From: Pseudomonadota bacterium
GTDB lineage: Bacteria; Pseudomonadota; Gammaproteobacteria; Xanthomonadales; Rhodanobacteraceae
Reading direction: 5' to 3'
DNA: 52,913 bases
NCBI GenBank assembly: GCA_029779475.1
Contig: JAKPAN010000234.1
Span: forward strand, 1-52,913
The notes under the pieces are model-generated. The model searched no databases. It saw nothing but the letters and a program-made list of their open reading frames with translations, and had not been told where the DNA came from. Position 1 is the stretch's first letter, and each line of letters begins with the position of its first letter. This document shows positions 22,068-26,105 of the stretch, piece after piece. The translations under genes were made by a program, and so were the position numbers.

Positions 22068-25000
22068 TCAGCCGCCGTCGAAGCCATTGGCGAAAATGCG
22101 GTCGAGGCAATCGACGATGACGTCGCTGACATTCGCGCCGGCGATCGTGCCCGTGCCGTTGCGCACGGTGCAAAACAGGCCGCTCGGTTGCGTTTCCACG
22201 TTCACTGCATAGTCCGTCCCGTCGGCGAGCTTGGTCGGGAACGTGAATGCGGTGACGCCGGTGCCGACGCCCATCTGTTGCGTGTCGTTGACGGTGAGCC
22301 GCATGCCGCTGCTGCTCAACCCGATGATGGTGCCGCCGACGGAGTACGTCGCTGCGAGCGGTGCGCAGGCGATCGTCACGTCGGTGACATTGGCGCCCGC
22401 GACGTCGCCGCTGTTGCTCGACGCCGTGCAGGCGAGGCCAACCGGTTGCGCGCTCACGATGACCGTGTAGTGCGTGCCGTCGGCGATCGCGTTCGCGAAC
22501 GTGAAGCCCGTCGCGCCGGAGGCGACGTCGAGCATCTGCGCGCCGTTGTTGAGCGAGAGCTTGAGCCCGCTCGCGGTGAGGCCGCTGACCGTGCCGCCGA
22601 TCGTGTAGGTCGGCAACGGCGCGCACGCGACCGCGATCGACGTGACGTTGCCGCCGCTGACCGTGCCGGTGTTGCCGGTGAGCGAGCAGGCCAGGCCGCC
22701 GGGTTGCGTGTTGATTTCGACGTCGTAGGCGGTGTTGTTTGCGACCGCGTTCGCGAACGTGAAGCCCGTCGCGCCGGAGGCGACGTCGAGCATCTGCGCG
22801 CCGTTGTTGAGCGAGAGCTTGAGCCCGCTTGCGGTGAGGCCGCTGACCGTACCGCCGACCGTGTAGTTCGAACTGGCGGCCTGCACGGCGATTGTGTAGT
22901 CCTCGGCCTGGCCGTAGCCGGTGGTGTTGCAGGCGGCCGGATATGCCACGCTGCTCGAGTACTTCTTGATCACGCGGAAACGCGTATTGCCCGGGAGCGC
23001 GCCTGCCGGTACCGTGATCGTGCCCGTCGCCTGCTTGCCGTCGGTGCCGGTCGAGTTGGTGATGACGCCGATGTCGTATTTCTCGCCGGTGCCGAAGGTG
23101 CCGTCGTGGTTCCAGTCCGCGTACGCCGAGATGTAGGTGCTGTAACTGCTTCCGGCCGTGTTGCCTTCGACGGCGATCGGATAGGTTTGGCCCGCCATCA
23201 CGGCGCCGCCCGCGACGCCGAGGAAGTCTTCCAGCGCCGGGCTGCCGCCCACGGTCGCCGAGCTGGGATTGTTGATGCCCGTGAAGTTCACGCGAGTGAT
23301 CGGTTCCACCGCACTAGGGAACGTCGCCGCGCAGTACGGTTCCGGGAACGTCACCCCGGTGGTGAAAGTGAAAGTCGCCGAATTCGCGCTGTTGCCGCAG
23401 GGGCTGTTCGAGCGGACGCGCCAGTAGTAGGTCGTCATCGCCGCCAGCGCGGTGCCCGGTGTCCAGCTGTTGGTGTTCGAAGTGCCGCTGGCGACGAGGG
23501 TCGCGAATGCGCTGTCGGTGGCGACTTCGATCGTGTAGCCGATCGCGGCCGGATCGGCCGCCCACGAGAACGTCGGCGTGCGTGCGACGCCGCTCGCGTT
23601 GTCCGCGGGCGCGGCGAGGGCGGGCGCGCCCGGCACGCCCACGGCGACCTGCAACTGCACGTTTGCGGAATGGCCGGGGCTGGCTGTCGCCGTACCGCTG
23701 ACCGTGATCGTGGACGTGCCGGCGGTGGCCGCACCCGTCGCGTTGATCGTCAGCGTCGCGCTGCTTCCCGGCGCGGCCGGATTGGGCGACACCGCGGCGG
23801 TGATGCCGGTCGGCGCGCCGCTCGTCGCGAACGTCACCGGATTGGCGAAGCCCATCGCCGAGCCGATGTCGATCGTATAGGTGGTGCTGCCGGGCGCGCA
23901 CATCAGCCGGCTCGGATTCGGCACGTTGAGCGTGAAATCCGGCGGATCGCTGCTGCACACCGGGCGCGCGCCACAGGCGATGCCGTGCGCGCTGAACGCG
24001 TCCCAGATGCGGCAGGCATTGGGCGTGCCGTTGGCGAGGTTGCCGTCGTCGTCGTCTGCGGCGAGGAACGCGGTATACCAGTTGTTCGAGCCGCAGCCAT
24101 CGACGGTCGCATTGACATTGCAGGTGCCGCCGGATGCGACGCGATACGCGCTCTTCGACGGCGTGAGGCTGCCGTACCAGATGCGATCCATCGCCGTGTA
24201 GCCGTCGGCGGCGCCGAAGCGCGCGACGAGCGCTTGCGCCAGATCCCAGTTCGCGGTGCTGGCGATGTAGCTTTCGCAATGGCCTTCCCAGCCCATTGGG
24301 CCGCGATAGGCGGTGCCGGTGTCGGGGCGGTTGTATGGGCAGGCGATGCTGTTGAGGCCGAGGTATGCGTTGCAGTCGATGCCGGTCGTGCTCGTTACGT
24401 TGGCGGGCGTTGCGATCGTGTGCGAACCGCCGAGGGCGAACGCGGACAGGTCACGCACGCCGGTGCAAGTGGCGTTGCAGTTGTGGCAGGTCTTGCTCGG
24501 CGTGAAGTTCTTGCCGATGCAGGCATCCTTGGTTTCGAGGAACGCGAAGGTATCGCCGACCGCTTCGCCGCTGCCGTACTCGCTCGCTGCGCCGCCGGTG
24601 TTGGTGTCGAGGCCGTGGCCCCATTCGTGCAGGAACACCGCGGCGATCTCGCCGGTGTCCGAGCAGAACGTGCCGCCGGTGGAGGTGCCGGACTTGAAGA
24701 AGTTCAGCGCGCTGCCGTCCCAGTACGCATTGCACACCTGGTTGAGGTTCATGTTCGCGGTGACCTTCGAGTTCAGCCAGGTGTTGGTCGTCAGGATCGC
24801 GCGCGCTTTCTCGTTGATCTTGGTCAGGTGGTAGAAGCCGGTACGCGAGGCGTGCGTGTTGCCCGCGCCGCCGAAACCGGGCGTCGTGCAATCGGTGCCG
24901 GCGCTGGTGCCAAGGTTGAGGTTGCCGTCGGTCGAACTGGCGAGCGAGATCGAGCCGCAGGTATCGATGATCCGGAAGTACTGGCCGTTGAGAGCAACCG

Positions 25001-26105
25001 TGGCCGAGCCGCCCGCGTAATCGTAGATGCCGAGCGCGTCGGTGATCTTCGCGCTGCCGTTGCTGACGGTCGTGTACGGGAAGGGCACGACGACTTCCGT
25101 GTCGGTGTTGGTCGTCGGGTAGATACCGCCGCTGACCGTCGCGTTGACGTAGTCGTTGAGGTCGCGCACGTCCACGAGGCGATTGCTCTTGGCGTCGAGC
25201 AGCACTTCATATGTGGCCGCATTGCCTTCGACGCGGAACACGAAGCGCCAGACCAGGCGATGCGCGTAACCCGCGCCATCCGCGCCGAGGTAGGCGTCGC
25301 GTGCGTCGGCGCCGTTCGCAGCGACGGGAACGAACAGCAGTTCGCCGGGTTCGAGGACGTCCTTCACGACGCTGCCAGTGGGCAAGGCCATTTCGCGCAC
25401 GGCGAGGTCGAACGCGCTCGAGGCGGTCGACACCGGCGTCGCGTCGATCCCGACCGGTGCAACGAGGTGGCTGCCGAACTGCACGATGTTGCCGTGCGAA
25501 ATCCGGAAGAACAGATGCGCGTCCTTGACGCGGATGCCGTGCGCGTATTGCGCGAGTTCGACGAACCAGTGCGTCGAGCCGTCGCCGTAGGGCACGCTGG
25601 ATTGGGGGTCGAGGCGGAATTCGAGGCCGCGCGAGCGCAGCAGGTCGTCGTTCGCGGCGATGAAATCGCGCAGGCGCGTTTCGACGACGGCGATGTCGAC
25701 CGGTTCGTTCGCCGGCAGGCCGAGACTGCTCGCCGTCAGCGCGTTGCCCTTGCCGGGAATCAGCGCGACGCCGCTGCCCTGGATCAGCTCGGGACGATCG
25801 GCACGACGATCCCAGCGCATTTCCCACTCGCCCTTGTTGCGCGCGAGGAACGTGTCTGCGCCGGCATGCGGCGTTGCGCCGAGCACGAGTCCGACGCTGG
25901 TTTCGAGTTCGGGTTGTACGTCGAGATCCTGCGCATGCGGCGCCGCCTGCATCGCGACGCGTTGCGGGGACTCCGGCGGCTGGATGGCAAAGGCGAACGA
26001 AGTGGTCGCGGCCAGCAACACCGCAGCGAATGCGTGGCTGGCACGCAGGATGACCGAGCGGCACGCGCACGTGGCGCGGCCGGCCAAAGAGCCGGTTTTC
26101 GACAT
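22068..26105 (-). CDS. Large secreted zinc metallopeptidase (M4/M36-like gluzincin)
   Basis: 1345 residues. The start at 26105 begins MSKTGSLAGR and a signal peptide that probably ends SFAFA; GGGGA lies upstream. A propeptide-like region spans roughly 30-330. The zinc site is HEWGH at 493-497 with the third ligand probably E514 in GEAVGD, matching the NEAISD spacing of thermolysin-like enzymes. After it come an Ig-like stretch (about 722-822), a fibronectin-III-like domain (824-917), a GEVED-type domain (920-1072, ending GQAEDYT) and three tandem beta repeats of about 86 residues starting YTVGG, YTIGG and YSVGG. The end is CLDRIFANGFDGG. I infer an outer-surface or secreted protease, probably exported by Sec and then type II secretion; the substrate is unknown. 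Neighbours give no pathway context. Confidence 0.88.
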   Translation of the reverse strand: MSKTGSLAGRATCACRSVILRASHAFAAVLLAATTSFAFAIQPPESPQRVAMQAAPHAQDLDVQPELETSVGLVLGATPHAGADTFLARNKGEWEMRWDRRADRPELIQGSGVALIPGKGNALTASSLGLPANEPVDIAVVETRLRDFIAANDDLLRSRGLEFRLDPQSSVPYGDGSTHWFVELAQYAHGIRVKDAHLFFRISHGNIVQFGSHLVAPVGIDATPVSTASSAFDLAVREMALPTGSVVKDVLEPGELLFVPVAANGADARDAYLGADGAGYAHRLVWRFVFRVEGNAATYEVLLDAKSNRLVDVRDLNDYVNATVSGGIYPTTNTDTEVVVPFPYTTVSNGSAKITDALGIYDYAGGSATVALNGQYFRIIDTCGSISLASSTDGNLNLGTSAGTDCTTPGFGGAGNTHASRTGFYHLTKINEKARAILTTNTWLNSKVTANMNLNQVCNAYWDGSALNFFKSGTSTGGTFCSDTGEIAAVFLHEWGHGLDTNTGGAASEYGSGEAVGDTFAFLETKDACIGKNFTPSKTCHNCNATCTGVRDLSAFALGGSHTIATPANVTSTTGIDCNAYLGLNSIACPYNRPDTGTAYRGPMGWEGHCESYIASTANWDLAQALVARFGAADGYTAMDRIWYGSLTPSKSAYRVASGGTCNVNATVDGCGSNNWYTAFLAADDDDGNLANGTPNACRIWDAFSAHGIACGARPVCSSDPPDFTLNVPNPSRLMCAPGSTTYTIDIGSAMGFANPVTFATSGAPTGITAAVSPNPAAPGSSATLTINATGAATAGTSTITVSGTATASPGHSANVQLQVAVGVPGAPALAAPADNASGVARTPTFSWAADPAAIGYTIEVATDSAFATLVASGTSNTNSWTPGTALAAMTTYYWRVRSNSPCGNSANSATFTFTTGVTFPEPYCAATFPSAVEPITRVNFTGINNPSSATVGGSPALEDFLGVAGGAVMAGQTYPIAVEGNTAGSSYSTYISAYADWNHDGTFGTGEKYDIGVITNSTGTDGKQATGTITVPAGALPGNTRFRVIKKYSSSVAYPAACNTTGYGQAEDYTIAVQAASSNYTVGGTVSGLTASGLKLSLNNGAQMLDVASGATGFTFANAVANNTAYDVEINTQPGGLACSLTGNTGTVSGGNVTSIAVACAPLPTYTIGGTVSGLTASGLKLSLNNGAQMLDVASGATGFTFANAIADGTHYTVIVSAQPVGLACTASSNSGDVAGANVTDVTIACAPLAATYSVGGTIIGLSSSGMRLTVNDTQQMGVGTGVTAFTFPTKLADGTDYAVNVETQPSGLFCTVRNGTGTIAGANVSDVIVDCLDRIFANGFDGG
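22488..22865. repeat. Near-identical 120-base direct repeat inside the peptidase gene
   Basis: 22488-22607 and 22746-22865 differ at only three positions. The period of 258 bases equals 86 codons, one C-terminal beta repeat. The third repeat (near 22110-22355) has clearly diverged, so the first two look like a recent duplication or a conversion event. Confidence 0.85.

Follow-up and report, generated by a model that had tools for sequence, protein, structure and literature searches.

What do the last residues of two separate genes on one contig have in common, and what could such a shared ending be for? The question is raised by the window, that is, the whole stretch of 52,913 nucleotides analysed, which is contig C201 of genome G000 (3.23 Mb, 335 contigs). 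On the plus strand, positions 3-83 hold the 3′ part of one carrier gene (26 residues plus the stop, the 5′ part lying off the contig), whose C-terminal end in translation is SCTATFSDVIFANGFDAM followed by the stop (SDVIFANGFDAM); the gene is truncated by the window start and its tail motif, D-V-I-F-A-N-G-F-D, occupies positions 48-74 (genome pattern match C201:55-73). On the minus strand, a gene of 1339 amino acids at 22068-26087, with its stop at 22068, ends in DCLDRIFANGFDGG followed by the stop (LDRIFANGFDGG) and bears the motif D-R-I-F-A-N-G-F-D at 22077-22103 (genome pattern match C201:22078-22096), two residues ahead of the stop. The initial annotation had reported the same tail on both proteins, and it was found again when both ends were re-read in translation. 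The 1339-residue protein is a putative metallopeptidase composed of a predicted Sec signal peptide of 40 amino acids ending in SFAFA (25968-26087, minus strand; start and signal peptide by heuristic), a metallopeptidase-like region with an HEWGH sequence, Ig-like and GEVED domains (PF25788 and PF20009 in a Pfam scan), repeats, and the tail. None of the Pfam peptidase families matched it at E 0.01, and the HExxH motif was read by eye.

The tail is not confined to these two genes. When IFA[ND]GF[DE] was back-translated, 23 DNA matches were found in G000 and none in a reversed control, and 19 of the 23 reach a stop within 12 codons. The wider pattern [hydrophobic]F.[ND]GF[DE] ([ILV]F-x-[ND]GF[DE]) gave 80 matches against none in the reversed control, so that the recurrence of the tail is beyond chance. 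For these matches 69 stretches were fetched and each frame was read. The resulting logo, D(68/79)-x-[I64 L8 V8]-F-x-[N43 D37]-G-F-[D54 E26], defines a full motif of nine residues, D-x-[IL]-F-x-[ND]-G-F-[DE], in which the aspartate two residues ahead of the Ile/Val/Leu (68 of 79 copies) had been missed initially. The residue separating F from [ND] is variable (A in 29 copies, R in 15, K in 8, further residues in the rest), and no position upstream of the aspartate is conserved in the logo of the G000 copies. A cysteine shortly ahead of the motif, which had been noted on both window proteins, is incidental, being present within the 15 preceding residues in only 19 of 57 tails. A search for relatives of the tail in the PDB returned nothing meaningful (best E 1.4).

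The proteins that carry the motif are very diverse. From the 80 matches 75 carrier genes were called, of which 10 truncated at the 5′ end were excluded, leaving 65 complete carriers. A signal peptide was predicted for 58 of these 65 and for 110 of 265 other genes in the same stretches, by a lenient heuristic of our own in which the start codon was freely chosen; the enrichment that the initial annotation had suggested looking for is thus present. Among the seven carriers missed by the heuristic, a signal can be recognised by eye in three (L084, L104 and L111), that of L104 being the Tat-like RRTVLKGF (TIGR01409 match weak, E 3.7); the starts of the remaining four are uncertain. Equal frequency on cytoplasmic proteins would have told against a sorting role; no complete G000 carrier is clearly cytoplasmic, with the reservation that four starts are uncertain and the test is lenient.

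A second concern was that the tail might be the end of one long homologous domain. Choice-of-anchor Q proteins are indeed frequent among carriers (15 of 60 scanned against NCBIfam, and 15 in a second set of 57), followed in the first set by CSLREA (6), delta-60 (5) and choice-of-anchor J (3). The remaining matches are to unrelated families, which contradicts a single domain: S8 peptidase (three carriers) and kelch (two) among Pfam domains, the ExeM/NucH nuclease and PHA depolymerase models in single carriers among the 60 scanned, and a plastocyanin-like protein, L074, in which the profile match reaches no further than residue 119 of the 132 and is followed by the tail. The layout of L198 resembles that of L074 by eye. 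The motif is also found at mature N-termini, as described below, and common descent of one terminal domain, like fortuitous similarity, is therefore very improbable. The carriers lack one common fold and the tail is modular. A curated model of the tail was absent from the 25 commonest NCBIfam families shown (of 62 and 82 for the 60 and 57 carriers, respectively), and in eight carriers examined to E 10 no curated model lay over the tail.

The position of the motif within its carriers is not fixed. In G000, 59 of the 80 copies reach a stop within 12 codons, with 0 residues of spacing in 15 cases, 1 in 8 and 2 in 13, and the other 21 lie deeper inside the protein. Some of these internal copies stand directly behind a predicted signal peptide (L105, ...GSAQA-SDLVFRNGFDPGF; L113, ...SFAAA-GDSLFADGFDPRLW; L057). 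By eye, the copy in the S8 peptidase L099 lies immediately ahead of the catalytic domain, that in L063 lies close to a PA domain, and further copies separate repeats from a C-terminal region. Contrary to what had been proposed from the two window proteins, the motif is thus not a strictly C-terminal signal; since copies occur after signal peptides, in linkers and between regions, it behaves as an exposed linear tag whose favourite place is the C-terminus. Seven carriers (L053, L070, L075, L078, L091, L092 and L098) have VIFRDGFD-like motifs 113-185 residues upstream of the stop, which follow repeat-like regions and precede an extra C-terminal region, with the aspartate at -2 mostly replaced. 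In Marinicella, a protein (L130, 2653-4971) bears two tandem tails at its end, PDLIFKNGFESDIIFKDGFE.

Short modular C-terminal elements shared by many unrelated exported proteins of a genome are familiar from GlyGly-CTERM/rhombosortase, PEP-CTERM/exosortase and MYXO-CTERM/myxosortase, and the host families overlap in part (choice-of-anchor, M36). The PEP-CTERM, GlyGly-CTERM, MYXO-CTERM and LPXTG tails consist of a hydrophobic helix followed by a basic cluster at the C-terminus. A tail of this membrane type was rejected, as no helix plus basic cluster was seen by eye in any of the 59 C-terminal tails. The present motif differs also in occurring at mature N-termini and in linkers, and in tracking a type II secretion system (T2SS), judged by the families profiled (GspD, GspC and TIGR02999), and not an intramembrane protease. 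The C-terminal domain of the T9SS (TIGR04183) is likewise a C-terminal address common to many secreted proteins, and its model matches 2 of 60 carriers somewhere in the protein (best 5e-11). That domain is folded and about 70-80 residues long; T9SS cargo was discarded as an identity because the present motif has nine residues and shows no conservation ahead of the aspartate at -2. PEP-CTERM and GlyGly-CTERM tails are open to phylogenetic profiling, as the present tail is.

The distribution of the tail across genomes lends itself to such profiling. In a sample of the class, the 273 genomes other than G000 have 0-5 matches to the wide pattern; within the order (151 genomes) the tail count is bimodal, with a maximum of 128. 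When named genomes were scanned for D.IF.[ND]GFE followed by a stop, at least 117 stretches came up, of which 80 were read; among the matches listed are Marinicella, Dokdonella, Tahibacter, Rudaea and many Lysobacterales or gammaproteobacterial metagenome-assembled genomes (MAGs), and the proteins are diverse. A few matches to the tail pattern were also seen in contigs labelled as Bacillota, Planctomycetales or Alcanivoracaceae MAGs (L149, L165, L128 and L198), which may reflect mis-binning or transfer. The proposal of a modular motif on exported proteins in part of the Lysobacterales is in agreement with these data, given the diverse folds of the carriers and the export prediction, by a lenient heuristic, for most of them.

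The initial annotation had also recommended looking for a gene whose presence follows the tail. A GspD search in 60 genomes revealed a second, non-PilQ GspD in tail-positive genomes, while the high-scoring GspDs of tail-negative genomes of family f1 are all of one type (some weak extra matches besides). One of the latter genomes, G345, has three GspD copies, all of them in clade B of the tree described next (L399-L401). In a tree of 84 GspDs there are two deep clades: clade B occurs in tail-positive and tail-negative genomes alike, clade A only in GspC-positive ones, and the grouping by family within clade A suggests vertical descent. System A was defined by a GspC of TIGR01713, with its PDZ domain, together with a clade A GspD, the GspC being searched in 80 and then in the other 71 genomes of the order. 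Nearly all system A GspC matches span the PDZ part of the TIGR01713 model. The Xps-like system B falls just short of being universal (G290 lacks any GspD, and in G012 and G413 a PilQ-like match is the only one); the T2SS in general was rejected as the partner because system B was found in most of the tail-negative genomes searched.

At a first cut (GspC at E 1e-7), genomes with and without GspC numbered 58 and 4 for at least 15 tail matches, 7 and 2 for 6-14, and 20 and 60 for fewer. In the final table of 151 genomes, 77 have both tail and system A, 62 neither, 6 the tail only and 6 system A only, at a cut of 8 matches that was picked after the data had been seen (the picture is unchanged at cuts of 10 and 15) and with matches to the Arg/Ser variant described below added for the 80 genomes searched for it, the other 71 being left out of that search. 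The Fisher p value is 6e-28, relatedness being ignored. Two genomes were removed from system A: G332, because its second GspD sits on a separate long branch, and G368, because only a partial GspC match and no A-type GspD were found. The association holds among genomes at least 95% complete (n=114: both 53, neither 56, tail only 2, system A only 3) and at genus level (n=64: 31, 30, 1 and 2, respectively). Within families it is also sharp: in f1 there are 37-131 matches in all five genomes with system A and 0-4 in all 20 without it, and in f2 there are 67 in the sole genome with system A and 0-2 in all 23 without it (G332 counted among these). A gene set that largely follows the tail therefore does exist, and the tail is most likely linked to this PDZ-type T2SS, the support being correlation. 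A reading of families and trees indicates that tail and system A are both largely inherited by descent, so that the independent joint losses are few, about four.

Where stretches around gspC were read, gspD comes after it, and in two cases the frame beyond gspD is, to judge from its end, presumably GspE. In G000, contig C38 carries gspC with the beginning of gspD, which is truncated by the contig end, and a tail gene 0.4 kb away; within the genus of G000, the distance between the system A gspC and a tail gene is about 0.4-3 kb (L058 of G000, L278 of G381). Of 40 gspC regions, none longer than 20 kb, 5 contained a tail-like frame, with no sign of clustering outside the genus of G000 (no formal test). 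Clustering of the neighbours of tail genes yielded no recognisable sorting enzyme: an ECF sigma factor and a Ser/Thr kinase were commonest, at 10 loci each, a third family was found at 7 loci, and all others at 3 or fewer. The ECF sigma factors are of the TIGR02999 type; they and the kinases recur beside tail genes, for example at L058 (2-1740), L100 and L119.

Genus g243 (family f180, 15 genomes) appeared at first as an exception, since it has system A and at most 4 canonical matches. The choice-of-anchor Q proteins of this genus end in tails such as DSIFNDRFEQP, DEVFQDRFEQP, DEIFSDRFEQP and DRIFGSRFD. From 30 choice-of-anchor Q loci, 7 that ran off the stretch were left uncounted, and the other 23 comprise 22 of g243 and one of G372. 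In 18 of the 22 readable g243 loci (five genomes), [ILVM]F-x-[DS]-R-F lies close to the stop, with the aspartate at -2 in 15 of the 18 and with E (12), Q (3), D (1), A (1) or G (1) after the F; two loci have neither ending, and two (L336 and L359) carry an IPTL-like membrane tail rather than the variant, so that g243 may have two sorting routes side by side. The protein of G372, a genome without system A, has no tail and stops one residue beyond the domain. The pattern D.[hydrophobic]F.[NDSG][RS]F[DEQH] gave 8-63 matches in 14 of the 15 g243 genomes (none in G360, of 1.8 Mb) and 22 in the related G410. It gave none in 13 of 14 f1 genomes and in all 11 f2 genomes searched that lack system A, none in G332, and 0-17 in genomes with the canonical tail. 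The exception is thus turned into support: g243 has an Arg variant, D-x-IF-x-DRFE, in which the glycine has become Arg or Ser. Acidic compensation for the change from Gly to Arg was not found in any convincing form in GspC; in GspD a few positions are acidic in all 4 Arg-type g243 sequences and in few or none of 32 others, and because these come from one genus, compensation is inseparable from descent.

Some genomes remain discordant. The tail is accompanied by system A in 77 of 83 tail-positive genomes, and the six exceptions are three incomplete MAGs and three genomes of family f178. The former (G319, G330 and G389; 90, 77 and 94% complete) are rich in tails and have no detected system A, the GspD matches of G389 being fragments. 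The latter (G334 and G393 of genus g260, and G368) have 9-16 matches, most of those in g260 being real tails, and only GspD of clade B was found in g260 and G368; in one g260 protein (L332) the motif lies shortly past the N-terminus. Conversely, G353 and G398 of the same family carry system A with 1 match each, and few matches accompany system A also in g266 (3 and 7), G360 (2) and G380 (7). Our guess for f178 is either tails left over after the loss of system A or further unseen dialects.

The f178 genomes also bear on another reading, in which the tag is recognised by a co-inherited protein unrelated to the T2SS (a ligase, a protease or a receptor) and system A is a fellow traveller. The copy number of TIGR02999 rises with the tail as well (in f1, 9-22 copies in tail-rich genomes against 0-8 in tail-negative ones, these being 0-2 with one of 8; in f2, 15 against 0-5), so that system A is not the sole correlate, and the partner families profiled were GspD, GspC and TIGR02999 only, so that another gene may do as well. 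TIGR02999 itself was rejected as the partner, since its presence does not separate the genomes (8 of 20 f1 and 14 of 23 f2 tail-negatives have it) and its copy number does so only in part. System A, in contrast, is found in 0 of the 20 f1 and 0 of the 23 f2 tail-negatives (G332 set aside; GspC alone in 1 of 23), and the Arg variant was obtained by reading g243 proteins, independently of GspC. A reader foreign to the T2SS is on balance unlikely.

Regarding the transport system itself, the T2SS moves folded proteins exported by Sec or Tat, and the HR region of GspC binds the N0 domain of GspD, according to the Xps study (PMC11981180). The same study proposes the second periplasmic domain of GspC, a PDZ domain in some systems and a single helix in XpsC, which lacks the PDZ, as a docking site, and reports that a conserved T2S signal has yet to be found (PMC11981180). 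The weak GspC-like matches next to clade B gspD genes cover the HR part of the model only, in agreement with that description of XpsC (PMC11981180). In Vibrio, secretion of VesB requires the PDZ domain of EpsC, and the Ig fold of VesB holds PDZ-dependent information (PMC12369372). Pel3 is described as using several flexible loops, one of them with disorder-to-order transitions, in a study that calls the mechanism of cargo selection elusive (PMC7949064). The carriers are comparable to VesB with EpsC and to Pel3 with Out in combining folded proteins exported by Sec or Tat, a PDZ-type GspC and a flexible exposed element. The VesB Ig fold and the Pel3 loops are structural and substrate-specific, whereas here one linear motif stands on dozens of unrelated proteins per genome.

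On these grounds it can be proposed that the nine-residue motif serves as a recognition tag, exposed and independent of fold, which proteins exported by Sec or Tat carry mostly at their extreme C-terminus and in some cases in a linker or at the mature N-terminus. Folded periplasmic carriers would be recruited through this tag by a second, lineage-specific T2SS, system A, with its PDZ-bearing GspC and its own GspD, alongside the Xps-like system B. System A would read the tag through the PDZ domain of GspC or the neighbouring N-domains of GspD, and the tag would be the flexible element of its cargo, possibly bound as an extended strand plus an [ND]G turn. We put the probability that the motif is an exposed linear signal for secretion by system A at roughly 50%, the support being correlation. 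The fuller version, in which the tag can be transplanted to any fold for a PDZ-GspC T2SS and lineage dialects (DGFE, DRFE) co-evolve with the machine, is somewhat less probable and should be taken as tentative. A canonical PDZ ligand presents a free C-terminal carboxylate at a fixed distance. The tag was rejected as such a ligand: only 15 of the 59 C-terminal tails end at the motif, 44 run on for 1-12 residues, and 21 of the 80 copies are internal. Since most tails extend past the motif, a contact of the PDZ domain with a free carboxylate is unlikely.

The tail had originally been likened to a C-terminal sorting or anchoring signal. What is supported of this is a modular, export-linked tag with a co-occurring gene set; membrane-anchor anatomy is absent, and the internal copies speak against a strictly C-terminal signal. 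With a PDZ-bearing T2SS as the best-supported partner, translocation across the outer membrane is indicated at least as much as anchoring. A tag for retention at the cell surface, where system A would secrete the carriers for other reasons and the tag would bind an outer-membrane or surface partner, seems to us rather improbable. Many carriers are choice-of-anchor Q or J, CSLREA, peptidase or repeat proteins, families which elsewhere bear surface-sorting signals, as the model names convey. The tail, in turn, lacks a hydrophobic helix, a basic cluster and a conserved cysteine, it also occurs behind signal peptides and in linkers, and a surface partner was not found in the neighbour clustering, which was the search made for it. 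A precedent for retention comes from GlyGly-CTERM proteins in Vibrio, whose retention and T2SS signals can be separate (PMC13393428).

The tail is real, modular and, at the level of literature listings and abstracts, apparently undescribed, no report of it having been found there. If secretion by system A is its function, the tag may represent a type of address label believed to be missing from such export machines. The choice of cargo by the T2SS is an open question, which a tag on dozens of proteins per genome makes testable, and several cultured genera, Dokdonella, Tahibacter and Marinicella among them, have the tail. Should system A not be the reader, the profile of the tail would be a starting point toward the right gene. 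If it is, the tag would aid exoproteome prediction in a large group of environmental bacteria, and it could serve as a generic secretion tag.
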